A DNA stretch of 64,000 nucleotides from contig NZ_CP042263.1 in assembly GCF_007855645.1 (NCBI RefSeq), positions 1 through 64,000 of the forward strand. Reading direction: 5' to 3'. Positions 16,567 to 33,411 of the stretch are shown one piece after another (position 1 is the first letter of the stretch; each line of letters begins with the position of its first letter). This stretch comes from Qingshengfaniella alkalisoli (lineage in GTDB: Bacteria > Pseudomonadota > Alphaproteobacteria > Rhodobacterales > Rhodobacteraceae). The position numbers and the translations under genes are program-made. The notes under the pieces are model-generated. The model saw only the letters and a program-made list of their open reading frames with translations. It ran no database searches and was not told the DNA's origin.

Positions 16567-17895
16567 GTGGCAGACGGGCAGTTCGATCAGTTCATCAGGA
16601 ATCTGACCCGCGTGATGGGGTCGGTGAATACGCGGCTCCAGCGGGATCTGACGATGCGCGAACGGGTTTCGCGCCGCTTCACTCTGTCCGAGGTCGCGGG
16701 CTTTATCGGGGTCGATACGGCAACGCTGCTGTGCTTGTCCCAGACGGACCCGGCCTTCCCCGATGGCGCGTTGGCCGGACGTGAGCGCAGCTTTTCTCCC
16801 GCCGAGATACTGCGCATCCGCGCGATCCTGTCGTCGCATGGCAACGCGGGGCAGCCATGCCTGTACTGGCGCGAACCGGGTGATCCGCTGCGGGTGGTGA
16901 CGTTCGGCGCGCAGAAGGGTGGCACCGGGAAAAGCCTGTCGGCGGCCCATTTCGCGCAGTATGTGAACCTGTTCTACGGGCTGCGCGTGGGCGTGATCGA
17001 TGCGGACCCGCAAGCCACGGCAAGCCTTTACTTCGCGGACAACGCCCTGCGCCTGTTCGATCCGCAAACGCCGACCATGGCGCGTTTCATGGGGATCGAC
17101 GACCCGACCGATCTGCGCCTGACTGAAACGCCCGCTGCCGATCTGAACGCGATCTGGGCGCCGACGCCCTGGTCGGGCATCCGGCTTATCCCCGGCGGGC
17201 CGGATATCCAGAACGGCGATATCAGTCTCTATTTCCTGTCGCGCGAAGGGCGGCATGTGTATCGCGTGCTCAAAGATGCCATTGCGCGCTGGGACGATGC
17301 TTATGGCCCACGCACCAGCCCCGCCGATCTGCGCGATGCAAGTGGTGCGTTCTTGCCCGACCGGTTTGATGCGGCGCTGACCGAAACCGTCGATCTGATC
17401 GTGATCGACCAGCAGCCCAGCCTGACGCTTGTGCAACTCAACGGGTTGATCGCCGCGGACAGCGTGGTGATCCCGCAGACGATGAAGGGCTTCGACCTGG
17501 CGACGCTGGCGACCTATGTGACGTCGATTTCCGAATACCTCGATTTCGTCATGACGTTCGAGCCAGACCTGAAAGTCGGGCGCGGCGCGCATGTGGTGCT
17601 GCCGACCATCGTGCAGGAACAGAACGACCGCGACACCGGGCAGATACTCGACCTGTGGCGCAAGGCCCCGCAGGATATTCTGCAGGTGTGGTATGCTCGA
17701 TCCGATGCCATCGCCAACGCCGCCGAGGAATACAAAAGTATCTATGAATACCTGCCGCCGCGTGCCAGACGGGCCTCCGCACGGTCCTTTATGGAAAACG
17801 CAAACTCTGTGAACGATGCCTTGTTGCGCAGGGTATGGCCCGAACTGCCGGGCAGAGGATTCGCGGAGACATTCATTGAGGATCACTGGAGTTAA
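16567..17895 (+). CDS. parA: ParA/RepA-like partition ATPase, module 2
   Basis: A 442-aa partition ATPase, a distant paralogue of the protein at 224-1528. The N-terminal helix-turn-helix region (FTLSEVAGFIGVDTATLLCL, about 38-57) is followed by Walker A QKGGTGKS (about 116-123) and VIDADPQAT (about 143-151). The Walker B region reads LIVIDQQPS, where most relatives have DxPP with cysteine or thiol-like residues; the catalytic effect is unknown. The only reasonable start is GTG at 16567, because an in-frame stop lies at 16525 and no ATG follows it. The ribosome binding site is weak and the class 2 palindrome abuts the start, suggesting tight autoregulation. parB2 follows after 4 bp. Confidence 0.88.
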   Translation: MADGQFDQFIRNLTRVMGSVNTRLQRDLTMRERVSRRFTLSEVAGFIGVDTATLLCLSQTDPAFPDGALAGRERSFSPAEILRIRAILSSHGNAGQPCLYWREPGDPLRVVTFGAQKGGTGKSLSAAHFAQYVNLFYGLRVGVIDADPQATASLYFADNALRLFDPQTPTMARFMGIDDPTDLRLTETPAADLNAIWAPTPWSGIRLIPGGPDIQNGDISLYFLSREGRHVYRVLKDAIARWDDAYGPRTSPADLRDASGAFLPDRFDAALTETVDLIVIDQQPSLTLVQLNGLIAADSVVIPQTMKGFDLATLATYVTSISEYLDFVMTFEPDLKVGRGAHVVLPTIVQEQNDRDTGQILDLWRKAPQDILQVWYARSDAIANAAEEYKSIYEYLPPRARRASARSFMENANSVNDALLRRVWPELPGRGFAETFIEDHWS

Positions 17896-17899
17896 GCTG

Positions 17900-18814
17900 A
17901 TGCCACGCAAACGCAAACTCGACGCCACGCTTCCGGCGGAAGACACCGGGCCGGGCACACCCGCGGCTGGCGGCATCGGCGGTTTCTGGGGCGGGTCGGC
18001 GACCAACTTGCTGCAAGCGCGGCTGCGCGAGGTTCAGAAATCGGTGTCGGACAGCATTCTGCATGGCGTGACGGCCATAAGTATATCCGCGGATAAAATC
18101 GACGATGAGGTGGGCACCGATCGGCTGCGCGCGTGGGAAAAGGACGACGCCTTCGAGGCGCTGGTGGCCGATATGCGCCGTCGCGGTCAACGTCAGCCTG
18201 TTCGCGTTCGGCCGACGCGGAAGGACTGGCAGCCGAATGCGCAGGAGCCTTTCGCCGGGGATGCGCGGTTCGTGCTACAGTCGGGCCGTCGCCGCTTGGC
18301 CGCTGCCAGGGCGCTGGGGCTTCCGGTGCTGGCGGTCATATCGACGGAAACGGGTGACGCGAAATTGGCCGATCTGGAAGAGCGCTTCCTTGAGAATACC
18401 ATGCGGCAGGATCTGTCGGGGTTCGAGGAATTGCTGTCCATCGGTTTGATTGCGCAGGGGCACACCGATCTGACGCAGGCGGAACTGGCAGAACGGCTGG
18501 GTGTGCCGCCGGGGGATGTGTCGCTTGGTCAATCCTGCGTCGAACTGCATGACCGGATCATCGAGACGGTAAATGTCGCCACGACCCCGAAGCGCAAATA
18601 TCGCGAACTGATCCCGCGATTGCGGGCCGACGCCAAATCCGGCGATGCCAAGCCGAAGTTGGCGCCCGCTGGAAAAGTGGTTGCGCTCGGCGATCTGAAG
18701 ATGGAAAGCAGGGCGCAACGAAACGGGTTGCAGATCAAGCTGTCGGGTCGCGCGCTGGCCGAGGACGAGGTGGACCGGATCACGAAGGCCATCGCCGAGA
18801 TCGTCGGAAAGTAG
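17900..18814 (+). CDS. parB: ParB/RepB-like partition protein, module 2
   Basis: A 304-aa ParB-family protein. The ParB/Srx domain shows RRRGQRQPVRVRPT, the nucleotide motif VLQSGRRRLAAARAL and ENTMRQDLSGFEELL, followed by a helix-turn-helix (LTQAELAERLGVPPGDVSLGQS). I start it at 17900 (MPRKRKLD), 4 bp after the parA2 stop; the open frame runs further upstream inside parA2. It should recognise the ATATCCGCGGATAT family, one copy of which lies in this gene at 18083-18094. It differs strongly from the ParB of module 1, so the two modules are probably of separate origin and not a recent duplication. Confidence 0.9.
   Translation: MPRKRKLDATLPAEDTGPGTPAAGGIGGFWGGSATNLLQARLREVQKSVSDSILHGVTAISISADKIDDEVGTDRLRAWEKDDAFEALVADMRRRGQRQPVRVRPTRKDWQPNAQEPFAGDARFVLQSGRRRLAAARALGLPVLAVISTETGDAKLADLEERFLENTMRQDLSGFEELLSIGLIAQGHTDLTQAELAERLGVPPGDVSLGQSCVELHDRIIETVNVATTPKRKYRELIPRLRADAKSGDAKPKLAPAGKVVALGDLKMESRAQRNGLQIKLSGRALAEDEVDRITKAIAEIVGK
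18083..18094. repeat. class 2 partition palindrome inside parB2
   Basis: Perfect 12-bp palindrome TATCCGCGGATA inside parB2, matching the core of the site in front of parA2. Confidence 0.6.
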
Positions 18815-18939: not shown

Positions 18940-20790
18940 ATGTCCATGGATGAACTGAACGCAGCGCAGGAACGCAAAACCAGGCAGCAACTGGTGCAGG
19001 TCGCGCTTGGCCGGCAGGTGGCGGACCGGCTGGTGCGGGTGGCGCGTGTCTTCGATAGCCAGACCCGTAGCTGGATCGAGGATGCCGAGATCGTTTGCCA
19101 TGCGGGGCGGGTTGCGTTTGTCGGGCCGCGCGGCAGCTACACGGGCGATGCGGCGGATGTCGTAGACCGGACGCATCTGGCGGCGGTGCCGGGTCTGGGC
19201 GAGATACACAAGCATATCGAAAGCTCGCATCTGACACCCGAATGGGAAGCGGCGCTGGTCGTGCCGCGCGGCAACACGTGGACCTGCGAGGCCAGCCATG
19301 AATTTTCCAATGTCGTGCCGGACCGCACGATGGATTTCTGGTTGGCGCCGCGCCGCGCGGGGTCGCCGCTGAAAATTTTCCCGCTGCCTGGGTCCGCTGT
19401 GCCACCGACGGCCTGGGAACATGGCGCGCATCTGGATGGGACGGATCAGAGCCGATTCCTGAAACAGTCGCTTTGGGCTGCCGGGCTGGATGAGGTCATG
19501 GACTGGCCCGCCGTGCGCGACGCCGACAATCCCGCGCATGACCGGCTGTGGTCGATGATCGAGGCCACATGGGATGCGCGCGCGGTGGTCGAAGGTCACG
19601 CGGCGGGCATCCGCGGTCTGCCGAACATCAACGCCTTCGCGGCGTCGGGAATTTCATCCGATCACGAGGCATGGACCGCCGAAGAAGCCTGGGACAAGCT
19701 GCGACGCGGCCTGTTCGTGGAAATCCGGATCCATACGCTGCCTGAAATCATCGGCGGTTTGCTGGAACGGGGTTTGCAGGATTGGTCCCAACTGGCGCTG
19801 ACCACTGATGACCGCAGCGCATCCGACACGCTTGCCTTGGGCGCCACGGATCACAATGTCCGCTTGGCGATAGAGGCCGGTTTATCCGCGGATATGGCGA
19901 TTCAGATGGTCACGATCAATCCCGCGCGGCATATGCGGCTGACGCCTTGGGTGGGGACCATCGCGCCGGGGCGATTTGCGGATTTCGTGCTGCTGTCGGA
20001 TCTGGATCGCTTCGACATCGCCGAGGTTTGGGCAGATGGGCAGCAGGTGTCGCGGGGCAAGACCTATCTGCCCGAGGTGCCCGAGATCAACTGGCCGGAA
20101 TGGGCCACGCAAACGGTGAATGTCGGGCGTGCGCTTGTGGCGGATGATTTTCGGGTCGAGGCCGCGCCGGATCGCGACACGATGAACGCGGCGGTCCTGC
20201 GTCCCTTCCACTGGACGGATGACTTCCTGACCGAAGACCTGCCCGTCATGGACGGTGCTGTGCAGCGGGACGCAGCGAACAACATCACCAAATTCGCGAT
20301 AGTGGATCGCTATTCCGGCACGGGCGCAGTGTCGAAGATGTTCTGGAAGGGCTGCGGGCCGCGCGATGCGGATACGGCGCTTGCCTGTTCCATGGCACAT
20401 GACAAGCACAATGTATGGTGCGTGGGGTCATCCGATCAGGCCATGGCGGATTGCGTGAATGCACTGGCCGAGATGGGCGGCGGCTGGGTATTGATCTACC
20501 GCGGCAAGGTCACGGCACGTGTGCGATATGAAATCGCCGGGTTGATGACTTGCCGGTCTGCCGCTGAATTGCACGCCGACATGCAAGCGCTTTACGAGGC
20601 GGGCGCACAGGTGGACTGGATGTACGAGCCGTCTTTCCATCCCAAATGGCTGCCCGGTTTCCCTGAAAAGCTGGCCTTTGCAACGCTGACCTGTTCGCCC
20701 TGGCGATGGAATCTCGTCGCGCCCAGTGATCACGCGCCGCAGGGGCTGGTGCAGGTCGGCACAGGAGAAACTCACCCGGTGGTTTTCTGA
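18940..20790 (+). CDS. adenine deaminase-like amidohydrolase
   Basis: A 616-aa protein of the adenine deaminase (Ade) family, which hydrolyses adenine to hypoxanthine and ammonia in purine salvage. Family motifs are recognisable: the metal-binding HKHIESSHLTPE, SHEFSNV (usually PHEIANV), VEGHAAGIRG, SGISSDHEA and TTDDRSASDT. The second half resembles the C-terminal beta-sandwich of Ade. Several deviations (LGEIHKH in place of FIDAHVH, Ser before HE) suggest a divergent subfamily that may act on a related purine. A class 2 palindrome lies inside the gene at 19883. It converges with, and overlaps by 19 bp, a phosphoribosyltransferase gene, which supports a purine salvage role. Confidence 0.75.
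   Translation: MSMDELNAAQERKTRQQLVQVALGRQVADRLVRVARVFDSQTRSWIEDAEIVCHAGRVAFVGPRGSYTGDAADVVDRTHLAAVPGLGEIHKHIESSHLTPEWEAALVVPRGNTWTCEASHEFSNVVPDRTMDFWLAPRRAGSPLKIFPLPGSAVPPTAWEHGAHLDGTDQSRFLKQSLWAAGLDEVMDWPAVRDADNPAHDRLWSMIEATWDARAVVEGHAAGIRGLPNINAFAASGISSDHEAWTAEEAWDKLRRGLFVEIRIHTLPEIIGGLLERGLQDWSQLALTTDDRSASDTLALGATDHNVRLAIEAGLSADMAIQMVTINPARHMRLTPWVGTIAPGRFADFVLLSDLDRFDIAEVWADGQQVSRGKTYLPEVPEINWPEWATQTVNVGRALVADDFRVEAAPDRDTMNAAVLRPFHWTDDFLTEDLPVMDGAVQRDAANNITKFAIVDRYSGTGAVSKMFWKGCGPRDADTALACSMAHDKHNVWCVGSSDQAMADCVNALAEMGGGWVLIYRGKVTARVRYEIAGLMTCRSAAELHADMQALYEAGAQVDWMYEPSFHPKWLPGFPEKLAFATLTCSPWRWNLVAPSDHAPQGLVQVGTGETHPVVF
19883..19894. repeat. class 2 partition palindrome inside the adenine deaminase-like gene
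   Basis: Perfect 12-bp palindrome TATCCGCGGATA, encoded through Ser-Ala-Asp codons as in metE. It is the nearest downstream copy to parB2, 1.8 kb from the copy inside that gene. Confidence 0.5.
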
Positions 20791-21458
20791 TCCTCGGCTT
20801 CGGTCCAGCTTTTGCCCGAGCGCTGCAACAGCGGCGTTGCGATGGCGGATACTGTTGGGATATTGCCTACTACATTCTCCCAGCGACGGCTTTGAAGCAT
20901 GGCGCAGCCGATAGCGACAGGGCGCAGATTGATCTTGCCCAGCAGCGCCAGAACCGACGCGATGGATTTGCCGGAACTCAGCACGTCATCGACCACGGCC
21001 ACGCGCGTGCCGTCCAGCAGCGACATCATGCGCGGATCGATGTAAAGCGTCTTGGCCTGGTCGGGTGAGGTGATCGATCCCAAAGGCTGCGACAAGTCGG
21101 GGTCGTACCAGAACTTGCGCGAGGTGCTGAGCGGCACAATTCGCGTGTGCCCCAGCCTGCGCGCAACCGCCTCTGCCAGAGGCAGGCCGAGCGTGGGCAC
21201 GCCGATCACCACTTGCGGATCATGGGCATATAACTGGTCCGCGACGAAATCGGCCAGTGTGTCGAGCACTTCGAAACTGGCTTGGTTCAGGATGAGCGAC
21301 GCGACGCCCTTGTTCTGACCGCCGGGCAAAGTGCGGATGGGCAGCAGAAGGCGGCGGTCGTCCGGCAGGCTGGCGGCGAAGCTGCTTGTGTTCAGGATGC
21401 CGGTTTCCAGACTGTCCGGATAGACATGCTGCCAGTAGTCCTGCGGTGATATTTCCAT
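20772..21458 (-). CDS. phosphoribosyltransferase-domain protein
   Basis: A 228-aa cytoplasmic type I phosphoribosyltransferase. The PRPP-binding loop is VAVVDDVLSSGKSI and the PPi loop is probably VIGVPTLGLPLAEAVARRLG, so it would join PRPP to a nucleobase. The start at 21458 (MEISPQDY) is the most downstream good ATG; the frame is open far upstream but crosses the divergent M20 gene. The base specificity cannot be read from the sequence; placed against an adenine deaminase-like gene and close to a nucleoside hydrolase, it is probably a purine. The N-terminal ~50 residues are not typical of hypoxanthine or adenine phosphoribosyltransferases. Confidence 0.78.
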   Translation of the reverse strand: MEISPQDYWQHVYPDSLETGILNTSSFAASLPDDRRLLLPIRTLPGGQNKGVASLILNQASFEVLDTLADFVADQLYAHDPQVVIGVPTLGLPLAEAVARRLGHTRIVPLSTSRKFWYDPDLSQPLGSITSPDQAKTLYIDPRMMSLLDGTRVAVVDDVLSSGKSIASVLALLGKINLRPVAIGCAMLQSRRWENVVGNIPTVSAIATPLLQRSGKSWTEAEDQKTTG

Positions 21459-21526
21459 GGATATGCCCTTGTCAGTCTTTGTCGCGGCACAATAGGAACG
21501 GGGCGACACAGCGCAAGGGGCGAGCG

Positions 21527-22687
21527 ATGCAAAGCGACATTCTGAATGACCTGGTTTCACTGCGGCGCGATTTGCACGCACATCCCGAGCTTGGGTTCGA
21601 GGAAACACGCACAAGCACCATCGTGGCCGAACGTTTGGAAGCGGCGGGCATCGAAGTGCATCGCGGGCTTGGCAAGACGGGCGTCGTGGGCACGTTGCGG
21701 CTGGGGTCGGGCAATCGGGCCATCGGGCTGCGCGCCGATATGGATGCGCTGGCAATGCCGGAGATCGGTAACCCGCCGTGGAAATCGACGGTGGAAAATC
21801 GCATGCATGCCTGCGGCCATGACGGGCACACGACGCTGTTGCTGGGCGCGGCGGAGCAACTGGCGCGTGAAGGCGGCTTTGACGGGACGGTGCATTTCAT
21901 TTTCCAGCCCGCCGAGGAAGGCCGCGGTGGCGCGCGCGCGATGATGGCGGATGGCTTCTTTAATCGCTTCCCGGTCGATGCCGTTTACGGGCTGCACAAC
22001 ATGCCGGGGTTGGCGGTGGATCAGATCGCGGTGGTCGAAGGGCCGCAGCTTGCGTCGTCCGACAGTTGGACGGCGACCTTCAAGGGCGTGGGCACACACG
22101 GGGCCAAGCCGCATCTGGGCAAAGACGCAGTGACCTGTGCTGCGCATTTCCTGTCCATTTTGCACAATGTAGTCGCAAGGGAAGTAGATCCCTTGCAACC
22201 TGCCGTTGTCAGCGCCTGCGCGCTGTCGGCCGGCGATTTTGACGCGCTGAACGTGATCCCCGACGAGGTGAAAATCGGCGGCACGGCGCGGGCCTACACC
22301 CCCGAAGTGCGCGATCAGCTTGAAGCGGCGATTGGCCGGCTGGCCCATGGTGCGGCGGCGAGTTTCGGGATCGACTGCGACTACACGTTCATCCGGCGCA
22401 TCCCACCGGTGGTGAACGCGAAAGACCCGACCGGGATTTCACGGCAGGCGGCGGCGCGTGCGGGCGATGTGCTGACCGAGTTTCCCCCATCCACGGCGGG
22501 CGATGATTTCGCCGATTTCTCGCAAGAGGTGCCGGGCTGCTATGTGTGGCTGGGCAATGGCCCCGCGCAGGACGGGGCACTGCATCACAACACGCGATAT
22601 GACTTCAACGATGACGCGATCCCGACCGGCGTGCGGTATTGGGTGGAACTGGTCCGCGCGGCGCTACCCCAACGCGCGGGCGAGTAG
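21527..22687 (+). CDS. M20 family amidohydrolase (hippurate hydrolase-like)
   Basis: A 386-aa metal-dependent amidohydrolase of the M20D/IAA-amino acid hydrolase type, which removes acyl groups from N-acyl amino acids. Visible motifs are HPELGFEE, the metal-site sequence HACGHDGHTTLLLG, FQPAEEGRGGARAM and GLHNMPG, followed by the dimerisation lid domain and SSDSWTATFKGVGTHGAKP. The ATG at 21527 follows AGGGG. It is divergent from the phosphoribosyltransferase and overlaps the convergent nucleoside hydrolase tail by 24 bp. The physiological substrate is unknown. Its position inside a purine block may be incidental. Confidence 0.87.
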   Translation: MQSDILNDLVSLRRDLHAHPELGFEETRTSTIVAERLEAAGIEVHRGLGKTGVVGTLRLGSGNRAIGLRADMDALAMPEIGNPPWKSTVENRMHACGHDGHTTLLLGAAEQLAREGGFDGTVHFIFQPAEEGRGGARAMMADGFFNRFPVDAVYGLHNMPGLAVDQIAVVEGPQLASSDSWTATFKGVGTHGAKPHLGKDAVTCAAHFLSILHNVVAREVDPLQPAVVSACALSAGDFDALNVIPDEVKIGGTARAYTPEVRDQLEAAIGRLAHGAAASFGIDCDYTFIRRIPPVVNAKDPTGISRQAAARAGDVLTEFPPSTAGDDFADFSQEVPGCYVWLGNGPAQDGALHHNTRYDFNDDAIPTGVRYWVELVRAALPQRAGE

Positions 22688-23563
22688 GTCCAGCGCGACA
22701 GGGGCGTCGACCGTCATCGTGACGTCGATGGGATGGCTGTCCGCACGCGTCAGGGCGCCACGGTCGGCCTCATCCGTGTTGACCGAAAGCCCTGTGCGTT
22801 CGCATCCGAACAAATCGGGACGCAGCGCGAAGACCGGCACACAGGGGTCGTGCAGCGGGCGGCTTTCACCACCGGTTGTGCTGGCGAAATAGGCTTCGAT
22901 CAGCGCGCGGGCGGTACTGGCCTTGGGTGTGCCAAGTGCGGCGAGACGGTCCAGATAGGCGCGGTCCGCGCGCACCTGACGTGTGACATCCAGCGGGATC
23001 AGGGTGATGGGCAACCCCGATTGCAGGACGATTTCGGCGGCTTCGGGGTCATTGGCAATATTGAACTCGGCGCGCGGCCCGACATTGCCCGGCTCGTCAA
23101 TCGCGCCGCCCATGGCGATCAGGCGACCGATGCGGCGGGCGGCGTCCGGATCGGTCTGGATCAGCCGTGCGATGTTGGTCAGCGGGCCAAGTGCGAGGAT
23201 ATCCAGAGTTCTTTCCTGCGCAGCATTCAGAGCCGCAGCGAGATAGGTGACCGCATCGCCGTCTTGCGCCGCGCTTTGCGGATCAGGGAAGGTCACGCCG
23301 CCCAGCCCGTCCGTGCCGTGGATTTTCTCTTCGCTGATACCGGGACGGGTCAAGGGCTTGTCTGCACCCGGATAGACGGCAATATCCGAGCGGTCCGCCA
23401 GCGCGAGGATGCGCAGTGCATTCCGGGTCGTGTTGGACAGGCCGATATTTCCGGCAACCGTGGTGATACCCCGCACCGTCAGACCCTTGACCGACAGGGC
23501 AAAAAGAATCGCGATGGCGTCGTCTATGCCGGGGTCGGTGTCGATGATGACGTTGCGGGTCAT
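22664..23563 (-). CDS. inosine-uridine preferring nucleoside hydrolase family protein
   Basis: A 299-aa nucleoside N-ribohydrolase that cleaves a nucleoside to ribose and free base. The N-terminal calcium-site signature DTDPGIDDAIAILFAL is intact, followed by GNIGLSNTTRNAL, the HGTDGLGG segment and EFNIANDPEAAEIVL. Start and upstream stop overlap by four bases (ATGA), so it is the last gene of the operon starting with the PotD-like binding protein at 28635. Together with the deaminase before it, it would release bases or ribose from an imported nucleoside or thio-nucleoside. Confidence 0.9.
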   Translation of the reverse strand: MTRNVIIDTDPGIDDAIAILFALSVKGLTVRGITTVAGNIGLSNTTRNALRILALADRSDIAVYPGADKPLTRPGISEEKIHGTDGLGGVTFPDPQSAAQDGDAVTYLAAALNAAQERTLDILALGPLTNIARLIQTDPDAARRIGRLIAMGGAIDEPGNVGPRAEFNIANDPEAAEIVLQSGLPITLIPLDVTRQVRADRAYLDRLAALGTPKASTARALIEAYFASTTGGESRPLHDPCVPVFALRPDLFGCERTGLSVNTDEADRGALTRADSHPIDVTMTVDAPVALDLLARALG

Positions 23564-24873
23564 GTGGATCTCCTGTCGATTTCAGCGATCTTGGCACCGA
23601 AGGTGTGGGCCACCTGTCGCGCGTCCGACATGATCCGCGCGGTCTCCAGCGTTATCATCTGTCGGTCCTGCATCAGCCATTCACCCGCGACCATGGTGGC
23701 GCGGATATCGGACGGGCCAGCGGCAAAGACCAGCGTCGAATAGATGTCATAGACGGGTTGCAGGCGCGGATCGTCCAGACTGATGCGGATCAGGTCGGCT
23801 TGTTTGCCGACCTCCAGCGACCCGATGCGGTCGGCCATGCCCAGCACTTGTGCGCCCTCGATGGAGGCCATGCGGATCACGTCGCGCGAGGGCATGGGCT
23901 TGCGGCTGTGCCCGCGCAGTTTCTGGAACATGGATACGGGCGCAAACTGGGAAAACAGGTCCAGCGTGTTGCTGCTCATCGGCCCATCCGTGGAAATACC
24001 CACGGGGATTCCCGCCCCGCGCATTTCAGTCACGGGTGCAATGCCGCGCCCGCCCTTGCCATTGGCGCGCGCGTTATGCGCGACACCCACGCCGCGCTCT
24101 GCCATGAGCGAAATGTCGCTGTCGCTCACATGCAGGCAATGCGCGGCGATCAGACCGGGGATCAGCAGGCCAGCGCGGTCGGTGATTTCAACAGGCGTGC
24201 CGCCATGTTCGCGGGACCAGTCGTTTTCGCCATCTGTTTCGCCCAGATGCATCTGCACCGGAACGCCCGGATTATCGGCGGCCCAGCGGGCGACGCGGGC
24301 CATGATCTCGGGCCCGGTAGAGTAGGGGGCATGCGGCGCGATGGACGGGGTCACGCGGGGGTGGTTTCTGAATTCATCGACCAAGGCGTCTGTCAGGGCA
24401 AAGGCCTGATCGAAGCTGTCGTGGTCCGGGGCGTCGAAGTTGCCGAGCGTCTGGCCGACAACGCCGCGTATGCCCGCATCGGCCACGGCGCGGCCGATCT
24501 CCGCCTCGAAATAATACATGTCCGCCACGGTGGTGACGCCGCCCCGGATCAGCTCCAGCGTCGCAAGGCGTGCGCCTGTGGATACGGCGTCGGCAGTCAC
24601 GCATTCGCGTTCCAGTGGCAGGATGTAGCGGAACAGACGGTCGTCGACGTCTTCGCCCAAACCGCGAAACAGGGTCATGGCAATATGGCTGTGCGGGTTG
24701 ACCATGCCGGGCATGACCAGATCGCCGCCCATATCTGTCGCGCCTGTGATGTCGTCGGGTGTGCCTGTCCCGAGCGCCGTGATCCGGTCCCCGTCGATCC
24801 TTATCCAGCCGCGCTCGATTTCCGTCATATCCGCGTCCATTGTCAGGATGCGGGCATTGGTCAGAAGGGTCAC
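23560..24873 (-). CDS. amidohydrolase of the MTA/SAH deaminase type
   Basis: A 437-aa metal-dependent deaminase of the 5-methylthioadenosine/S-adenosylhomocysteine deaminase group (TrzA/AtzA-like amidohydrolases). Metal and active-site motifs are NPHSHIAMTLFRGLGEDV, QMHLGETDGE, AHCLHVSDSDI and GISTDGPMSSN. I place the start at GTG 24873 because it overlaps the stop of the ATPase gene (GTGA), matching the tight spacing of the operon; an ATG at 24900 in the same frame is possible. It would deaminate an adenine-containing nucleoside before the nucleoside hydrolase cuts it. The exact substrate is inferred. Confidence 0.83.
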   Translation of the reverse strand: MTLLTNARILTMDADMTEIERGWIRIDGDRITALGTGTPDDITGATDMGGDLVMPGMVNPHSHIAMTLFRGLGEDVDDRLFRYILPLERECVTADAVSTGARLATLELIRGGVTTVADMYYFEAEIGRAVADAGIRGVVGQTLGNFDAPDHDSFDQAFALTDALVDEFRNHPRVTPSIAPHAPYSTGPEIMARVARWAADNPGVPVQMHLGETDGENDWSREHGGTPVEITDRAGLLIPGLIAAHCLHVSDSDISLMAERGVGVAHNARANGKGGRGIAPVTEMRGAGIPVGISTDGPMSSNTLDLFSQFAPVSMFQKLRGHSRKPMPSRDVIRMASIEGAQVLGMADRIGSLEVGKQADLIRISLDDPRLQPVYDIYSTLVFAAGPSDIRATMVAGEWLMQDRQMITLETARIMSDARQVAHTFGAKIAEIDRRST

Positions 24874-25931
24874 GCGGCCTCGCTTGGCAGGATGCAGCAT
24901 TGATCGGCTTGCGGGACGAGGACGGCGTTGGTGCCCGGCTCCATCGGGTTGGACAACGGGCCGTTGGCGACAAATTCACCGGCAGCTGTTTCGCAGCGGT
25001 ATTGGTAAGCGCGACCCAGATAGGTGCGCAGACCCAGCTTTGCGGGGATGCCGTTGCCTTCGGACGCGACGCGCAGACCATCGGGGCGAGTGGCGAAGAT
25101 GAAATCCTTGTGCGCGATCTGAAAGCTTTCGCGTGGCAGATCCAGCGTCGCACCGCCTTGGGCCTGCACACGGACAGCGTCGCCCGCCTCGGCAACGACG
25201 CTCATCGGAATCATGTTCTCGAAGCCCACGAAATTGGCCACGAAACTGTTGGCGGGGCGCGAATACAGGACTTCCGGCGCGTCGAGCTGCATGATGCGGC
25301 CTGCGTTCATGATTGCAACGCGGTCGGAGATCGAAAACGCTTCTTCCTGGTCGTGGGTGACATAAAGCGCGGTTGTGCCGTTGGCGCGTTGCAGGCGGCG
25401 GATTTCGACGCGCATGTCCACACGCAGCTTGGCGTCGAGGTTGGATAGCGGTTCATCAAACATCAGAAGCGGCGGGTCGATCACAAGGGCGCGGGCAAGG
25501 GCTACGCGCTGGCGCTGGCCACCCGACAATTCCGCCGGATAGCGGTCGCCGAGCTGGGTCAGACCCACGCGGTCCAGCATATCGCCTGCGCGTTTGCGGC
25601 GTTCCGTGCTGCCGAGGCGGCGTTGCTTCAACCCGAAAGCCACGTTGTCACGGATGTTCAGATGCGGAAACAAGGCGTAGTTCTGGAACACCAGCCCGAT
25701 ATTGCGGGCATGCGCGGGCAGGCGGGTCAGGTCGCGCTCGCCCAGCTTGATGTCACCCGATGTGGGGCGCAGGAAGCCCGCCACCAGCCGCAACGTCGTC
25801 GTCTTGCCGCACCCCGATGAGCCGAGCAGCGAGACAAGCTCGCCTTCGCCGACATGCAGGGACAGGTCTTCGAGCACCTTGGTGGTGCCGTAATGGGCGG
25901 TCACATTGGAAAGTGAAAGGGATACGGTCAT
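24870..25931 (-). CDS. ABC transporter ATP-binding protein, PotA-like
   Basis: A 353-aa ATPase of the spermidine/putrescine-type (CUT/POPT) importers. Walker A is GSSGCGKTT, the signature LSGGQRQRVALARAL, Walker B LLMFDEPLSNLD and the H-loop VTHDQEEAF; a C-terminal TOBE-like regulatory domain follows from about residue 240. It energises the two permeases encoded immediately upstream. The start lies one base after the stop of the second permease. The polyamine label is by family only: the operon's enzymes argue for a purine nucleoside or related ligand. Confidence 0.9.
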   Translation of the reverse strand: MTVSLSLSNVTAHYGTTKVLEDLSLHVGEGELVSLLGSSGCGKTTTLRLVAGFLRPTSGDIKLGERDLTRLPAHARNIGLVFQNYALFPHLNIRDNVAFGLKQRRLGSTERRKRAGDMLDRVGLTQLGDRYPAELSGGQRQRVALARALVIDPPLLMFDEPLSNLDAKLRVDMRVEIRRLQRANGTTALYVTHDQEEAFSISDRVAIMNAGRIMQLDAPEVLYSRPANSFVANFVGFENMIPMSVVAEAGDAVRVQAQGGATLDLPRESFQIAHKDFIFATRPDGLRVASEGNGIPAKLGLRTYLGRAYQYRCETAAGEFVANGPLSNPMEPGTNAVLVPQADQCCILPSEAA

Positions 25932-25932
25932 G

Positions 25933-26721
25933 TCACTTCGTCAGGAATGTCAGGCCAAGGGTCAGTTCGACGACGGCCATCACACCGACGGTGACGAGCA
26001 TCAGCAGAACGGACACTGCGGCGATGGTGGGATCGAAGAACTGCTCCATATGCGCCAGAAGCTGGATGGGCAGGGTGGAAACGCCGGGGCCGGTCAGGAA
26101 CAGCGACACCGATACGTCATTGATCGAGGTGATCAGTGCGAGAATGAAGGCGGCGATCACGCCCGCTTTCACATTGGGCAGAACGATGGTGAAGAACGCC
26201 TTCCAGCGTGGGCAACCAAGGGACACGGCGGCTTCTTCGATTGAGAAATCGAACGACGACAGCGATGCCGACACCACCCGAACGCAATAGGGCAGTACCA
26301 GCAGCGCATGGCCGATGATCAGCGTGGTGTAGACCGGCACGCCCATTGTGGTGGTGATCGACTTCATCAGCGAAAAGCCCAGCACGATTTCCGGCACGAG
26401 GATCGGCAGCACGAACACCGTGGACAGAAACGGCGGCAGCTCGATCCGGTAGCGATTGAGCGCATAGGCGGCGGGGATGCCCACCAGCAGCGACAGTGCC
26501 GTGCCGATCAGGGCGAGCGAGGCGCTGGTAACCATCGTGCGGCGGAAGGCCGAAATCTCGAAGATGTTCTGATACCAGTGCAGCGTGATCCCGCGCGGAG
26601 GGAAGGTCAGAAAGCTGGTATCCGACAGCGACGCGCCGATGATGATGACGAGCGGCCCGACAAGGAACAGGAAGACCAGCGTGGCGAAGGCCACCAGAAG
26701 GAAATGGGGACGTGTTTTCAT
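25933..26721 (-). CDS. ABC transporter permease, PotC-like
   Basis: A 262-aa inner-membrane permease with about six transmembrane segments and the EAA loop EEAAVSLGCPRWKAFFTIVLPNV, which contacts the ATPase. It pairs with the PotB-like protein; its ATG overlaps that gene's stop by one base. It resembles the second permease of spermidine/putrescine importers. Confidence 0.9.
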   Translation of the reverse strand: MKTRPHFLLVAFATLVFLFLVGPLVIIIGASLSDTSFLTFPPRGITLHWYQNIFEISAFRRTMVTSASLALIGTALSLLVGIPAAYALNRYRIELPPFLSTVFVLPILVPEIVLGFSLMKSITTTMGVPVYTTLIIGHALLVLPYCVRVVSASLSSFDFSIEEAAVSLGCPRWKAFFTIVLPNVKAGVIAAFILALITSINDVSVSLFLTGPGVSTLPIQLLAHMEQFFDPTIAAVSVLLMLVTVGVMAVVELTLGLTFLTK

Positions 26722-27548
26722 CAGACAGCAGCCGGGTTGAGGCGACGGGCGATCTTGCTCATGACCAGCACGATGGCGATGGTCACGACGGTCATGATGG
26801 CCGCGATGGTGGAGGCGCCGATCCAGTCAAAGGTGACCATGGCGCGTTGATGCAGGAAGGTGCCCATCATCATCTGCGCTTCACCGCCCAGCAGGTGCGG
26901 CGTCGCATAGGATGTAAAAGATCCGGTAAAAACCAGCACCGCGCCTACGATCAGGCCGGGCACCGCCAGCGGGAAGATCACCTGCCAGAAGGTAGCAAAA
27001 GGCGATGCGCCCAGCGATGACGAGGCTTGCAGAAGGTCTTCGGGGATACCTTCCAGAACGCCCACGCAGGTCAGGATCATCAGCGGGACGAACAGATAGA
27101 CCATCGCCACGATCACCGAGCCTTCGGTGTAAAGCATCGAAAGCGGTTCGGTGATGATGCCCGTCCATTGCAGGAATTCGTTCAGGATGCCGTTGCGTCC
27201 CAGAATGATCAACCACGCAAAGGACCGGACCACGACGCCCGTCAGCAGCGGAAAGACGGCCGCGATGATCAACAGGCTTTTCATCCGGCCCGGCGTGCGC
27301 GACACGACATAGGCGGTGATGAACCCGATCAGCGCGGAAATGAGCGTGGTGATCAGCGCGATTTCGGTCGTGCGCCACAAGACGGTGCGACGGAACCCGC
27401 TGCCGAAGAACTCGGAATAGGTGGCGAAAACACCGTCTGACTGCGTGACGGTGGTGGACAGTGTGCTGAGCACCGGCAGGCCGAGGAACACCGCAACCGC
27501 GAGCGTCGCGGGAAGGGCCAGAAGCCAGCCTAGAAGACGGGGGCGCAT
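26721..27548 (-). CDS. ABC transporter permease, PotB-like
   Basis: A 275-aa membrane permease with a long N-terminal hydrophobic helix (LLGWLLALPATLAVAVFLGL) and an EAA-type loop (EDLLQASSSLGASPFATFW). It is the first permease of the PotABCD-type importer. The gene follows the binding-protein gene after a 67-bp gap that contains a GC-rich hairpin (27571-27589). Confidence 0.88.
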   Translation of the reverse strand: MRPRLLGWLLALPATLAVAVFLGLPVLSTLSTTVTQSDGVFATYSEFFGSGFRRTVLWRTTEIALITTLISALIGFITAYVVSRTPGRMKSLLIIAAVFPLLTGVVVRSFAWLIILGRNGILNEFLQWTGIITEPLSMLYTEGSVIVAMVYLFVPLMILTCVGVLEGIPEDLLQASSSLGASPFATFWQVIFPLAVPGLIVGAVLVFTGSFTSYATPHLLGGEAQMMMGTFLHQRAMVTFDWIGASTIAAIMTVVTIAIVLVMSKIARRLNPAAV

Positions 27549-27570
27549 GGGGCATCGCTCCTTATGACAA

Positions 27571-27589
27571 GGGGCGGTTCATCCGCCCC
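27571..27589 (-). other. intercistronic hairpin after PotD-like gene
   Basis: GGGGCGG (27571-27577) and CCGCCCC (27583-27589) form a perfect 7-bp stem with a 5-nt loop, directly after the binding-protein gene in transcription order. It occupies the same place as the hairpins in the other four transporter operons of the window. Confidence 0.6.
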
Positions 27590-27615
27590 CCGACTAACCT
27601 AGCGATCCGGATGGA

Positions 27616-28635
27616 TCACATGCCGAAGATTTCGTTCCAGCGGTCAATCCAGTCTGTCTTGGCCGCGTTCAGCGCCTCATAGTCCAGTCGGTTCAGGCTG
27701 GCAATCATGTCGTCGCCGTAGGTCCACAGCGCTGCTTCTTCGGGGGTCAGTTCGACATCGTCGTTGACGGGGGCGTCGACGCCTTGCTCGGCCTCGATCT
27801 GCTGGATCTCGGTGGACAGGACGAAATTGATGAACTCATGCGCCAGATCGACATTGGCGGCACCCGTCGGGATGTTGATCGTGTTCAGCGTGGCGATGTC
27901 GCCATCGGACAGATCGGCCCAGACCATCGACGGCACGGCGTCCTGCAACGATGCCAGTGTGAAATCCTGTGTGACCGCAACGGTCGCTTCGCCCGTGGAG
28001 ATCAGGTTCACCATCTCGGACCCGGTGCGGTAGGTCTTCACGACATTGGGTTTCAGTTCCTCGATCGCGCCGAAGGCGACGTCCGCGTCTTCATAGGCGT
28101 CGGCACCGGCATGTGTGCCAGCGCGCAGAACCATCATCGGGCCCGATGTCGTGGTGATGCCGGGCAGCGCGATGGCGTCTGCCAGATCGTCGCGCCAAAG
28201 GTCGCTCCAGCCGGTGATCGGTTCGACCTTCTCGGAGTCGTAGACGATGCCCACGCGACCGATGGAATAGGCGGGGCCGTAATTGCCCTGCGGGGCCTGC
28301 GCCATGTCGTAAAGCTTTTCGACATTGGGGATCTTGGCGCGGTCGACCTCCTGGAACAGCCCCTGTTCGATGCCGATCTGCGAATAGCTGTCGGTCAGGA
28401 AGATCACGTCCACGCCCGCGCCCTTGCGGATCGCCAGCTTGTTCAGGCGGTCGGCGTTGTTGCCGGTCTCGAACACGACCTCGCAATCGCACATTTCCTG
28501 AAACGGCTCGATGATGTTGGCTTGCAGCTTGTCGCCGTTATAGCCCCACCATGAAACGGTGAAGGTATCCTGCGCCTGCGCGCTGCCTGCGATCGCGGTG
28601 AAGGCGATCAGGCCTGATGTGAGGGTGCGGTTCAT
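27616..28635 (-). CDS. ABC transporter substrate-binding protein, PotD/PotF-like
   Basis: A 339-aa periplasmic binding protein with a signal peptide (TSGLIAFTAIAGSAQAQ, cleavage after AQA). The mature start FTVSWWGYNGDKLQANIIEPF and the segment YGPAYSIGRVGIVYDSEKV are typical of the spermidine/putrescine-binding cluster. An unusual CDC pair (EEMCDCEV region, near residues 49-51) lies near the N-terminus. It is the first gene of a six-gene operon that includes a nucleoside deaminase and a nucleoside hydrolase, so the ligand may be a purine nucleoside or a modified nucleoside. Its promoter lies in 28636-28818; I could not define it. Confidence 0.87.
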   Translation of the reverse strand: MNRTLTSGLIAFTAIAGSAQAQDTFTVSWWGYNGDKLQANIIEPFQEMCDCEVVFETGNNADRLNKLAIRKGAGVDVIFLTDSYSQIGIEQGLFQEVDRAKIPNVEKLYDMAQAPQGNYGPAYSIGRVGIVYDSEKVEPITGWSDLWRDDLADAIALPGITTTSGPMMVLRAGTHAGADAYEDADVAFGAIEELKPNVVKTYRTGSEMVNLISTGEATVAVTQDFTLASLQDAVPSMVWADLSDGDIATLNTINIPTGAANVDLAHEFINFVLSTEIQQIEAEQGVDAPVNDDVELTPEEAALWTYGDDMIASLNRLDYEALNAAKTDWIDRWNEIFGM

Positions 28636-28818
28636 GCCGGTCTCCGATATTGCGGGGATGTCTGATAACAGATTTCCGTGTCGTTAGCACCGTGTCAATC
28701 GCGGGATCAAGTCAGCGCGACCGTCGAGAAGCCGGATTCAGGGGGCTGATCGGGGGTATTCGCCGGAAATCCGGGCAAGCAGGGGCGGGTTTTGCCGAGA
28801 AATCCGGCGGTCCCGTAT

Positions 28819-29835
28819 TCAGTCGCCGTCCAACCCGTTTCGCAGCAGAGATGTCAGAAGGCGGGTCGTTTCCGTCAGCGAGGCGCGTGTCGTGCGTTCC
28901 CAGCCATGGCTTGCGTCGCAGGCGAAGCCGATGGCCGCGCATCGGATATCGGCACCGCTGAGCGTCGCGGGATAGGTGTCGGAATAGTAGTGGCGCAGCA
29001 CGTCAACCGAATGCGTGATTCCGTCCCGCTCGCATAACCGGCGCAGCGAAGCGGTCAGCTTGCGGTCATATGGCCCGCCGCTGTCCATCGCGATCAGGGT
29101 GACGCCCGTGGGGTGGCTTGCCTGTTCCGGTGCGATAATGGCGATGTCGAGCGCGATCAGATCATCCAGCCCATCGGCCATATGAGAAGCCCCTGTGCCG
29201 GTTTCCTCGGTGACGGGAAACAGGAAATCGAGGCTGTGTTTCGGGGTGTCGCCCGCCGCCTTCATCTGCTCGATTGCGCTGAGCAGGCAGGCGATGCCCG
29301 CCTTGTTGTCCAGATAGCGCGCATTGATGAAGCCGTTTGGCGTGATCTCCAACCCCGGATCAAGCGCGACGTAGTCGCCGGTCGTGACGGTGGCTGTGTC
29401 ATCCGTGTCGAGGCGCAATTCCAGATTGTCCCAACGGGTGGGTTGTTTGTCGACCGCGTTGCCATAGCGGTGGCCGGAGGCGCGCCTGGGCAGGATCGTG
29501 CCGCGGATGACGTCGCCCGTCCGGGTGAAAACCGATGCCCGCGCGCCTTCGGCAAAACGGGCCGACCATGTGCCGATGGGCAGAAGCTCCGGCCGCCCCG
29601 ACGCCGGCATGTGCCCGATCATCGCGCCGAGCGTGTCGAGATGCGCCGATATCCCGATGCGGCGGCTGCTTTGCCCGTCCCATCTGGCGCGGACAGCCCC
29701 GCGATTGCTGCGTGTGATTGCCAGCCCCGCGCGGGACAGGCGGTCCGCGACCATATCGGCCATGTCATCGGTCATGCCGGTCGGGCTGGGGATGGCAAGC
29801 AGTTCGCGTAATGTGTCGAGCAGGGGATCAGTCAT
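28819..29835 (-). CDS. M42 family metallopeptidase (NAGGN-type)
   Basis: A 338-aa zinc-dependent hydrolase of the M42/glutamyl aminopeptidase-like clan. Metal ligands are visible in GISAHLDTLGAMI, ARYLDNKAGIA, PVTEETGTGASH, MDSGGPYD and the C-terminal DASHGWERT. The closest group I recognise is the M42-like protein found in osmoprotectant (N-acetylglutaminylglutamine amide) gene sets, although that operon is not here. It overlaps the GntR regulator gene by 8 bp and ends the peptide transporter operon, so it likely hydrolyses imported peptides or peptide-like amides in the cytoplasm. Confidence 0.82.
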   Translation of the reverse strand: MTDPLLDTLRELLAIPSPTGMTDDMADMVADRLSRAGLAITRSNRGAVRARWDGQSSRRIGISAHLDTLGAMIGHMPASGRPELLPIGTWSARFAEGARASVFTRTGDVIRGTILPRRASGHRYGNAVDKQPTRWDNLELRLDTDDTATVTTGDYVALDPGLEITPNGFINARYLDNKAGIACLLSAIEQMKAAGDTPKHSLDFLFPVTEETGTGASHMADGLDDLIALDIAIIAPEQASHPTGVTLIAMDSGGPYDRKLTASLRRLCERDGITHSVDVLRHYYSDTYPATLSGADIRCAAIGFACDASHGWERTTRASLTETTRLLTSLLRNGLDGD

Positions 29836-30613
29836 GCAGGCTGCCTTCCTCGGCCATGAAGCGGCGGGTCATGATGATTTCCTGGTCCTTCATCGCCCGT
29901 TCAGCCATGACCATATGCGCGGCCATGATGTCGCGGGCCTCGCTGGATTTGCCATCCCGAAGCGCGTCGAGAAGGGTCACTTGATATTCATGTCCACGGC
30001 GCCGCAATTCGTCATTGCGCGGCTCGTAAAGCTGTTTGTTGACCGTCAGTTCCGTCAGCACATTGGCCAGGAAACCCACGACGAACCCCAAGAGCGCATT
30101 GTCGGAAAAACCCGCCAGCGTGCGATGGAAGGCAAGCGAGGCGACATGTTGCTGCCGTTCGCTTTGCGCATCCATCGATGGATGGGCGGTCGCGTCGAGA
30201 TGGGCTTCCAGCGCGGACAGTTGCTGGTCGCTCAGCGTACCGGCAAGGCTTGCGGCCAGTTCCGGTTCCAACTGGCGGCGCAACGTGTAGATGTCGCTGA
30301 CCGACAGGTTCTTGAAGTAGAAGTAGTTTGACAACAATGCCTGTGTGCGCCCGTCGCTGGGGGCATTCACGAATGCGCCACCCCCCGGCCCGGTGCGCGT
30401 TTTCACCAGCCCTTGCGCTTCCAGCAACCGGACGGCTTCACGAATCGTGCCCTTGGCCATGCCGTGGCGTTCGATCAGTTCGGGCTCCGACGGCAGCCGA
30501 TCGCCAGGGCCAAGATGCTCGGCGACGATATCGGCCTTGATGGCATCCGCGACCTGTTGCGGGCGGGATCTCTTGGTTTTACTGTCCGATTGGGTGGTGG
30601 CAGGCGGCGTCAT
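29828..30613 (-). CDS. GntR-family (FadR subfamily) transcriptional regulator
   Basis: A 261-aa regulator. The winged helix-turn-helix shows LGPGDRLPSEPELIERHGMAKGTIREAVRLLEAQGLV, and the all-helical C-terminal ligand domain is of the FCD/FadR type. The ATG at 30613 lies 35 bp inside the end of the dppF-like gene, an unusually long overlap; no later ATG or GTG before the helix-turn-helix fits better. As part of the peptide transporter operon it probably controls that operon, possibly at the palindromes between dppA and the DUF1028 gene. Confidence 0.88.
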   Translation of the reverse strand: MTPPATTQSDSKTKRSRPQQVADAIKADIVAEHLGPGDRLPSEPELIERHGMAKGTIREAVRLLEAQGLVKTRTGPGGGAFVNAPSDGRTQALLSNYFYFKNLSVSDIYTLRRQLEPELAASLAGTLSDQQLSALEAHLDATAHPSMDAQSERQQHVASLAFHRTLAGFSDNALLGFVVGFLANVLTELTVNKQLYEPRNDELRRRGHEYQVTLLDALRDGKSSEARDIMAAHMVMAERAMKDQEIIMTRRFMAEEGSLHD

Positions 30614-31547
30614 GGCCAGCAGTCATCCTACGTAGCGGCGGCACTTCGGTGCGGCAAATATCGGTGGCGGCTGGGCAGCGATCCGCGAAGGCACAGCCGG
30701 GCGGCGGGTTGAACGGGTCGGGCAATTCGGTATTCGCCTTCTCCGGTGCGGTCAACGCACGCCCCACCACGGGGGCGGAATCCGCAAGCAGCCGCGTGTA
30801 ATGATGCTTGGGTGCGCTGAAGATCCGATCCGCTTGCCCGATTTCCACGATGCGCCCGAAATACAGAACGGCAACGCGGTTGGACACGGCTTCGACGACG
30901 GCCAGATCATGGCTGATGAACAGATAGGTCAGGTTGAAGTCGTCCTTCAGCTGCGCGAGCAGGTTCAGCACCTGAGCCTGAACGGACACATCCAGCGCCG
31001 AGACGGGTTCATCCAGAATGAGGATCGCGGGGGCCGCCGCCAGCGCGCGGGCAATGCCGATGCGTTGAGCCTGTCCGCCGGAAAACTCATGCGGGTAACG
31101 GGTCAGGAATTCGTGCCGCAGATTCACGGCGTCGAATATCTCGGCGATCCGGGCGTCGCGCTTCGCCTTGGGCATATTGTGCAAAAGCTTCAGCGGTGCC
31201 TCGATGATCTGGCGGATCGTCTTGCGCGGGTTCAGCGAACTAATCGGATCCTGAAAGACATACTGGATGCGCCGCCCGAACTCGGCCGGGTCCCGCCCGG
31301 CATTATCGGCCAGATCGCGCCCGGCAATGGCGATGCGGCCCTCGGTCGGGGACAGCAGCCCCACCAGCATCCGCGCCAGCGTGGACTTGCCGCAGCCGCT
31401 TTCGCCCACGATGCCCAGCGTTTCGCCCTGCGCTACCTCGAAGGATACATCCTTGACGGCCTGAACTTGCGGCGGCGGGCCGCTGAACAGGCCGGATTTG
31501 CCGTAGAATACCTTGGTCAGCTTCTGCACATCCATGGCAAGCGTCAT
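30579..31547 (-). CDS. oligopeptide ABC transporter ATP-binding protein (DppF-like)
   Basis: A 322-aa ATPase with Walker A GESGCGKST, signature FSGGQAQRIGIARAL and Walker B ILILDEPVSALD, ending with the cysteine-containing oligopeptide-ATPase tail (PPGCAFADRCPAATDIC). The ATG at 31547 has an AAGGAGAT ribosome binding site and overlaps the stop of the fused dppCD gene (ATGA). It supplies the second nucleotide-binding domain of the transporter; the first is in the fusion protein. Confidence 0.9.
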   Translation of the reverse strand: MTLAMDVQKLTKVFYGKSGLFSGPPPQVQAVKDVSFEVAQGETLGIVGESGCGKSTLARMLVGLLSPTEGRIAIAGRDLADNAGRDPAEFGRRIQYVFQDPISSLNPRKTIRQIIEAPLKLLHNMPKAKRDARIAEIFDAVNLRHEFLTRYPHEFSGGQAQRIGIARALAAAPAILILDEPVSALDVSVQAQVLNLLAQLKDDFNLTYLFISHDLAVVEAVSNRVAVLYFGRIVEIGQADRIFSAPKHHYTRLLADSAPVVGRALTAPEKANTELPDPFNPPPGCAFADRCPAATDICRTEVPPLRRMTAGHDAACHHPIGQ

Positions 31548-33411
31548 GCGGTATCTCCTTCCGGAAACAGGCAGCGGAAGGCGCGGTCGCCGTCTTCGCG
31601 CAGGGCGACGTCGTGCTGTTTGCATTCGTCGCGCGCCTTGTCGCAGCGGGGCGCGAAGGCACAGCCGGGGGGCAAGTCGTCCACGGCGGGCGGCAGGCCG
31701 GGAATGGCTGCAAGTTCGCGTTTGCCACCGCCCAATTCCGGTACGCAATCGATCAGCCGCTTGGTGTAGGGGTGGCGGGGAGCGTCAAGCACATCGCCTG
31801 TTGTGCCTTCTTCCACGATGCGTCCGCCATACATAACGGTCACCCGGTCGCAAAGCTGGGCGACCACACCGAAGTCATGCGTGATGAAGATGATCGCCAC
31901 GTCGCGTTCGCGGCGCAGCTGGTCCAGCAGCGACAGGATCTGCGCCTGTACCGTGACGTCCAGCGCGGTGGTCGGCTCATCCGCGATGATCACGTCGGGT
32001 TCATTCGCCAGCGCCATGGCGATGGACACACGCTGGCGCATCCCGCCGGACATTTCATGCGGGTAGACATCCAGCCGGTTCGCGGGGTTGGGGATGCGCA
32101 CTTGCCGCATCAGGTCGAGCGCACGCTTTTCGGCCTCCGCGTCCGACACCTTGTGATGCACCTGAATGGCTTCGCGCAACTGCTTGCCGATCTTGTAGAG
32201 CGGATGCAGCGTCGCCAGCGGGTCCTGGAAGATATAGGCCACGTTTTCGCCGCGCATCTGCCGCAGGTCGCCATAAGGCGCGTCGATGATATCTTGCCCG
32301 CGATAACGTACGGCGCCGCCCGTGATGACGCCGGGCGGGGAGGCGACAAGCCCCATGACGGATAGCGCGGTGACCGATTTGCCGGATCCGCTTTCGCCGA
32401 TGATGCCCAGACATTCGCCGGGGCGGACGCGCAGCGAGACATGATTCACCGCGTGATAGGTCCGTTTGCCGACATGAAATTCAGTCTTCAGCGCCTCTAG
32501 GCGCAGCACGTCCGAGGTGTCGATCCGCGGAGCAGGCTTGTCGAGGCGCTTGACGATGGTGCGGGGCAGGGGACGCGACAGCGCGCCCGAGCGCAGGCGC
32601 GGGTCCAGCGCGTCGCGTACGCCGTCGCCCAGCAGGTTGATGCTCATCACGATCAGGAAAATCATCACACCGGGCACAACGGAGGTATGCGGGTTGGTGA
32701 TCAGTGCTGACCGCGCCTCGCCCAGCATCGAGCCGAGATCGGCCTGCGGCGGCTGTGACCCCAGACCAAGGAACGACAGCCCGGCGGTTTCAAGGATCAT
32801 CCAGCCGATGGTGGTGGACATGGCGATCACGATGACGGGCAGCACATTGGGCAGCAATTCCCGGGTGATGATCTTGAAATGTCCCATCCCGGCCAAGCGT
32901 GCGGCATCCACGAATTCGCGTGAGGCGAGCCCCACGGTAATCCCGCGGATGTTGCGGGCGAAGAAAGGGATGTTGACGACAGCCACCGCGATCAGCGCGT
33001 TCACCAGACCGGGCCCGAGTGCCGCGACAATGGCCAGCGCAAGCAGGATGTAGGGAAACGCCATCAGCATATCGATGGTGCGCATGAAGATGTTGTCCGT
33101 CGTGCCGCCGAAATAGCCTGCGGTTATTCCGATGGCCGACCCGATGCTGGCCGCGATCAGCGCGGCGGCGAAGCCAACGGCCAGGGACAGCCGCGTGCCA
33201 TGCAGCAGCCGCGACAGCAGATCGCGTCCCAGGTGGTCGGTGCCAAGCAGATGGCCGTCACTGAACACCGGCTGGAAGCGGTTGGCCGTGTTCGTGACGT
33301 CGGGTGCTTGCAGGGGCAGCACGGGCACCAGCAGAACCAGCAGCAGGATCAGCGCCAGCACGATTGCACCAAAGCCGGCCAGCCGGTTGCGGAACAGGAG
33401 CCTGAGAAAGG

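Follow-up and report, generated by a model that had tools for sequence, protein, structure and literature searches.

A Pot-type ABC transporter locus of Qingshengfaniella alkalisoli is predicted to import and salvage purine nucleosides

Introduction

The known systems closest to the one described here are the polyamine importers PotABCD and PotFGHI, the nucleoside ATP-binding cassette (ABC) importers of the BMP/PnrA type (PF02608), the COG1001 adenine deaminases, and the deaminases of 5'-methylthioadenosine (MTA) and S-adenosylhomocysteine (SAH). Our subject is a gene block at 18940-28635 of the first 64,000 nucleotides (forward strand) of contig NZ_CP042263.1 from Qingshengfaniella alkalisoli (Rhodobacteraceae; assembly GCF_007855645.1), a stretch that we call the window. 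The block encodes a PotD-like substrate-binding protein (SBP), two permeases, an ABC ATPase, an amidohydrolase-superfamily nucleoside deaminase (AH), an inosine-uridine type nucleoside hydrolase (NH), an aminoacylase-type amidohydrolase (M20), a purine-type phosphoribosyltransferase (PRT) and an adenine-deaminase-like amidohydrolase (Ade). From its gene content, the conservation of that content, the loss of the PotD ligand acids and the catalytic residues of AH, we predict, with a probability of roughly 0.8, that it is a system for the import and salvage of purine nucleosides.

With PotABCD and PotFGHI the block shares the fold of the binding protein and the types of subunit, but it lacks the ligand acids of PotD, all of its subunits score under the Pot cut-offs, and its operon carries purine enzymes. 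The BMP/PnrA-type importers do the job that we infer for the block, and they adjoin the same Ade in Agrobacterium vitis (domain tested) and Rhizobium ruizarguesonis (by annotation) or stand with NH and AH-like genes in two other genomes (G018, on a domain test, and G316, on sequence resemblance); the SBP, however, is of another binding-protein family. Ade has its domains and its HxH, SSDHE and TDD motifs in common with the COG1001 adenine deaminases (Atu4426, 3nqb) and with the N6-methyladenosine deaminase YerA, but it reaches only 165 bits to 3nqb, falls under the TIGR01178 cut-off, and has a substrate that is predicted. Similarly, AH shares the catalytic residues and the nucleoside-type glutamate of the MTA/SAH deaminase group (4f0r, TM0936) but lies below every NCBIfam equivalog cut-off. 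Finally, the closest solved relative of the SBP, the Clostridium perfringens binding protein 4edp, differs from it in having no C-x-C pair.

Results

Purine enzymes are conserved with the transporter

A search for the SBP across the host's family, covering 394 genomes that by the table used are each of a different genus, gave matches at E <= 1e-45 in 34 of them. Clade I comprises 19 genomes with 58-100% identity to the SBP (the host's own genome and one partial match included) and clade II 15 other genomes with 31-36% identity; G014, a clade I genome, carries a clade II copy in addition. The proteins of the window were compared with stretches no longer than 20 kb and with further loci taken from named genomes and plasmids, and in the family-wide searches the best four or five candidates were scored in most genomes. 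Two loci (L068, L071) were dropped as repeats of others (L041, L038), and neither clade includes the carbamoylase-type Pot loci (L055-L057, L103) or a locus whose SBP shares 53% identity (L095).

All 23 clade II loci hold Ade and/or NH (Ade in 22, NH in 21), and six of them M20 and PRT as well. A purine gene is present in 24 of the 29 clade I loci (AH in 21, Ade-type in 20, NH-type in 18, PRT in 16); M20 occurs in 11/29, a second, dipeptidase-like M20 (NF006579) follows AH in 15/29, and one or the other is found in 21/29. Ten of these 29 loci were located via AH and are thus biased toward holding it, and among the 19 located via the SBP alone a purine gene is present in 14 and AH in 11. The preliminary description of this DNA had made its proposal depend on the enzymes being conserved with the transporter, and so they are, both in clade II and in the SBP-located part of clade I. 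The transporter also occurs with purine enzymes in Deinococcus, Lactiplantibacillus and Sinorhizobium. As a control, we examined 21 distant PotD-like loci (24-31% identity to the SBP, up to 20 kb, one locus being from Q. alkalisoli itself), and none encoded Ade, NH, PRT or the dipeptidase at 70 bits; only remote paralogs were seen, in two loci (an AH paralog at 26% in L119 and an M20 paralog at 39-44% in L099). Based on this control, the association of the genes exceeds chance. Related genes also lie on two plasmids: in the Lactiplantibacillus plantarum plasmid pMK02 (L059) the transporter is accompanied by Ade and NH, and an IS30-type transposase gene lies immediately upstream, whilst a Weissella plasmid of 5.5 kb has a related SBP.

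The linkage extends to whole genomes. M20 orthologs (E <= 1e-130) were found in 15/394 family genomes, all 15 with the SBP (14/14 without the host), although in one of them (G337) M20 lies away from the transporter, inside a PRT-M20-NH block. AH orthologs (E <= 1e-80) were found in 16/394 genomes, 15 of which, the host included, have a clade I SBP (14/15 without the host); the remaining genome, G089, lacks a close SBP, and its AH lies near the start of a contig. Window-type Ade occurs in 13/315 genomes, 11 with a clade I SBP, and in one genome (G383) it lies away from the SBP (L111). G018 and G316, the two remaining Ade genomes, have it together with NH, AH-like and cytidine-deaminase-like genes and a gene for a BMP-type binding protein, the last identified by a PF02608 domain test in G018 and by sequence resemblance only in G316. 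A further type of nucleoside cluster, at L109 and L110, has a BMP-type binding protein, NH, AH-like and cytidine-deaminase-like genes, a PF07090 gene and window-type Ade (L110 also has a creatininase-like gene). In G383, at a distance from its Pot-type transporter, a relative of beta-hydroxy-amino-acid lyases (PF01168+PF14031) immediately precedes window-type Ade (L111:8418-11583).

The binding protein has a PotD-like fold and has lost the PotD ligand acids

The SBP (27616-28635, minus strand; PF13416/PF01547) has 4edp as its best solved relative in sequence (251 bits), PotD (1pot) reaching only 56 bits, and on the NCBIfam PotD model it scores 60.6 bits vs. a cut-off of 582. Its profile matches are to SBP_bac_8/6/11/1 and not to PF02608. 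An AlphaFold2 model (mean pLDDT 82.2, from 11 sequences) has a PotD-like fold; comparison with solved structures (Foldseek, VIA-align) places 4edp clearly first (Z 39.9, 38% identity; next structure Z 30.6) and matches PotD 1pot over the whole mature protein (Z 27.8, 307 aligned residues). The fold cannot name the ligand because the same match list also includes binders of opines, gamma-aminobutyric acid, sugar phosphates and iron. The ligand site is more telling: PotD residues E36, D168, E171 and D257, which we take to be the acidic residues that hold the amines, align with K36, I160, T163 and N251 of the SBP (the E36 position being the least certain), and with all four replaced a polyamine appears an unlikely ligand as judged from the alignment.

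The preliminary description had also pointed to a pair of cysteines near the start of the protein, and this pair is indeed present as a C-x-C motif (C49, C51) that is conserved in both purine-linked clades, i.e., in 100% of 28 clade I and 86-90% of 22 clade II aligned proteins. The alignment was limited to reading frames of >300 aa, with L095 and L058 outside both tallies and L099 (31%, a control locus elsewhere) counted among the clade II rows. We set the pair aside as a ligand site, given this conservation in both purine clades and its position in the model, at the turn that joins helix 1 to strand 2, where it would rather be structural. It is a candidate for a tight-turn disulfide and is absent from 4edp.

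The enzymes belong to purine-related families

AH (23560-24900, minus strand; PF01979) has the MTA/SAH deaminase 4f0r as its closest solved relative. Residues H70, H72, E97, H218, E221, H254 and D305 are invariant in all 11 aligned sequences, each of which carries the catalytic set of the MTA/SAH/adenosine deaminases (HxH, HxxE, H, D), and E97 aligns with the glutamate that binds ribose in related deaminases. On NF012037 (MTA/SAH deaminase) AH scores 214 bits vs. an equivalog cut-off of 779. NH (22664-23563, minus strand) is well above the PF01156 gathering score (284.9 vs. 34.2 bits) and under the cut-offs for RihA, RihC and UriH.

Ade (18940-20790, plus strand) combines PF01979 with the Adenine_deam_C domain (PF13382, 2e-29) and scores 278 bits on TIGR01178 (adenine deaminase), whose equivalog cut-off is 472.5. 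Its only relative in the PDB at E <= 1e-5 is 3nqb, with which its metal-ligand motifs HxH, SSDHE and TDD align, as is characteristic of COG1001-type enzymes. In the report on YerA, this COG1001 deaminase prefers N6-methyladenosine over N6-methyladenine, and COG1001 deaminases are able to use N6-substituted substrates (PMC12133300).

M20 (about 21527-22687, plus strand; profile query from 21518) exceeds the subfamily cut-off of TIGR01891 (325 vs. 153.75 bits), its PDB relatives being YxeP (1ysj) and an indole-3-acetic acid-amino-acid hydrolase (1xmb), and PRT (20772 to about 21458, minus strand; profile query from 21470; PF00156) exceeds the equivalog cut-off of NF004689 (PRK06031; 282 vs. 175 bits).

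Ade relatives stand beside other transporters

In A. vitis F2/5 the order is Pot-type transporter, carbamoylase, regulator, Ade (70%), annotated alanine racemase and BMP-type ABC system; R. ruizarguesonis has the same set but for the Pot-type transporter, which is absent from the stretch, and in Agrobacterium tumefaciens Ade (58%) adjoins an NCS2 permease. The transporters that accompany this same Ade are thus of three kinds, and two of these belong to purine-type families (PF02608, PF00860). A. vitis, Martelella, Neorhizobium and R. ruizarguesonis pair Ade (67-70%) with an N-carbamoyl-amino-acid hydrolase and a relative of beta-hydroxy-amino-acid lyases. In A. vitis the former is a relative of D-carbamoylase (1fo6, 395 bits) and the latter of D-threo-3-hydroxyaspartate dehydratase (3wqc, 146 bits; PF01168+PF14031). 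AH and NH are absent from the stretch that holds this sister cluster in A. vitis, Martelella and N. petrolearium. Elsewhere in its genome, Q. alkalisoli encodes a dipeptidase homolog (50%), two lyase homologs (24-31%), and three BMP-type binding proteins, so that ordinary nucleosides may already be served, which is circumstantial.

Locus layout and neighbouring genes

Downstream of the SBP on the minus strand follow a PotB/PotH-like permease (26721-27548; PF00528, under the NCBIfam PotB and PotH cut-offs), a PotC-like permease (25933-26721; PF00528, under the PotC cut-off), a PotA/PhnT2-like ATPase (24870-25931; PF00005 and TOBE_2, under the PotA cut-off), AH and NH, i.e., all the transport and enzyme genes that had been described for the operon, and Ade and PRT, described as lying beside it, are there as well (open reading frames and profile matches). 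The earlier statement that each gene overlaps the next is correct for the two permeases (1 bp), ATPase and AH (31 bp) and AH and NH (4 bp) but not for the SBP and first permease, which are 67 bp apart, or for the second permease and ATPase, which are adjacent without overlap. M20, which lies between NH and PRT and is encoded on the plus strand, had been omitted. The 183-bp gap upstream of the SBP (28636-28818, minus strand) is a putative promoter/control region in which a consensus scan found no promoter; across the window, promoter and terminator scans gave no signal above chance and Rfam and tRNA scans found nothing.

Directly upstream, on the same strand, lie genes for an M42 peptidase, a GntR/FCD regulator and an Opp-type peptide ABC system (28819-35986). 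Relatives of oppA (78%) and of the GntR gene (57%) also adjoin the SBP at L070; we do not count this block as part of the system, Opp-type genes being also near several of the distant control SBPs. Gene pairs that resemble plasmid-partition pairs occupy 224-2598 and 16567-18814, a ParA-like gene (AAA_31/CbiA) coming first in each; both fall in the first 19 kb of the contig, which may be a fused replicon, and the second pair ends 126 bp before the Ade start. Farther away (53267-61609), SelA-like, Rieske oxygenase, flavin mononucleotide oxidoreductase and DAO genes look like a block for the demethylation of betaine or N-methyl amino acids.

Discussion

The preliminary description had suggested that this Pot-type transporter carries a purine nucleoside instead of a polyamine, and our data support this suggestion: the enzymes are conserved with the transporter, AH orthologs almost always co-occur with a clade I SBP, and the PotD acids are lost. 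MTA or SAH, which had been among the ligands considered, are not singled out by the data, the alignments of AH included. Under our model, an adenosine-type nucleoside would be bound by the SBP in the periplasm and then carried inward by the PotBCA-like complex; there AH may deaminate it and NH split the product into base and ribose or, alternatively, NH may act first and Ade deaminate the base. PRT would convert hypoxanthine to inosine monophosphate (IMP), and M20 would remove an acyl or aminoacyl group. The presence of M20 in the block suggests that the natural substrate is a purine with an amide- or ureido-linked amino acid.

It is important to note that several results weigh against the import-and-salvage model. 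Ade falls short of all NCBIfam equivalog cut-offs, AH and NH do so by a wide margin, and the substrates of the three can therefore be named only approximately. Five of the 29 clade I loci (L054, L073, L075, L076, L078) have no purine gene; two of these (L075, L078) end at contig ends, one (L073) has a fragment of AH, and in the genome of L075 AH is found on a different contig, together with Ade, NH and PRT (L107). Lastly, the hypergeometric probabilities of the genome-wide linkage, calculated without the host (about 4e-17 for M20 with any SBP and 2e-21 for AH with a clade I SBP), ignore phylogeny and the joint transfer of the block.

The rival that survives best, at somewhat less than even odds, is plain adenosine/inosine salvage, in which a Pot-fold transporter takes up ordinary purine nucleosides and the M20 genes serve an unrelated N-acyl amino acid. 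It fits exactly the clade II loci that have NH and Ade only. However, M20 was found only in transporter-bearing genomes at the cut-off used and forms a block with PRT and NH even away from the transporter (L106), and AH and Ade together seem redundant for unmodified adenosine.

A special case of the import-and-salvage model, which we consider tentative and on balance unlikely, is that the operon serves specifically to take up and break down N6-aminoacylcarbamoyl purine nucleosides, i.e., N6-threonylcarbamoyladenosine (t6A), its glycine counterpart (g6A), cyclic t6A (ct6A), or the corresponding base, from tRNA turnover. According to two reports, t6A, a nucleoside of the N6-carbamoyl-amino-acid kind, is universally conserved and ct6A is a hydantoin (PMC13139853), and ct6A is prone to ring opening and to epimerization between its forms (PMC13244150). 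Either AH or Ade would deaminate C6, giving hypoxanthine or inosine and an N-carbamoyl amino acid, or M20 would free the amino acid first and leave adenine or adenosine; in the sister clusters, deaminase, N-carbamoyl-amino-acid hydrolase and beta-hydroxy-amino-acid lyase would strip the amino acid, and in the end AH, NH, Ade and PRT would return the purine to IMP. The sister-cluster enzymes fit: an N-carbamoyl amino acid is just what deamination of an N6-carbamoyl-amino-acid adenine would yield, and threonine belongs to the beta-hydroxy amino acids. Also consistent with this special case are the restriction of the M20 aminoacylase, at the cut-off used, to genomes with this transporter, the dipeptidase-like M20 after AH (in some loci overlapping it), the three BMP-type binding proteins that the host already has, and the activity of COG1001 relatives on N6-methyladenine and N6-methyladenosine (PMC12133300). 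On the other hand, M20 is in only six of the 23 loci of clade II, Ade and NH are the only enzymes of the set in the Deinococcus and Lactiplantibacillus loci, and among the neighbours identified in clade I clusters (not all of them were) we recognised no threonine-degrading gene. Further, t6A carries L-threonine, whereas the carbamoylase and lyase families are D-specific; that a D-amino acid arises from ct6A epimerization is speculation. Open-access literature searches returned no paper describing the catabolic fate of t6A, as judged by titles, and no direct match on rhizobial nucleoside transport or mutant fitness, as judged by listings.

Scavenging of MTA, 5'-deoxyadenosine or SAH is less probable still. 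Although AH is nearest in sequence, among solved structures, to an MTA/SAH deaminase, no MTA phosphorylase-like or thio-sugar gene was recognised among the identified part of the cluster neighbours, inosine-uridine type nucleoside hydrolases probably require the ribose hydroxyls, and both M20 and the carbamoylase would be left unexplained. A polyamine importer with chance neighbours, despite a fold and subunit types like those of PotABCD, is very improbable given the four replaced ligand acids and the conservation of the neighbours across phyla, with none in the distant control.

In conclusion, if the import-and-salvage model is correct, the routine label "spermidine/putrescine transporter" on a widely spread ABC family would be corrected and nucleoside import would gain another binding-protein family; and if the t6A case were also true, a universal tRNA modification would gain a catabolic fate.

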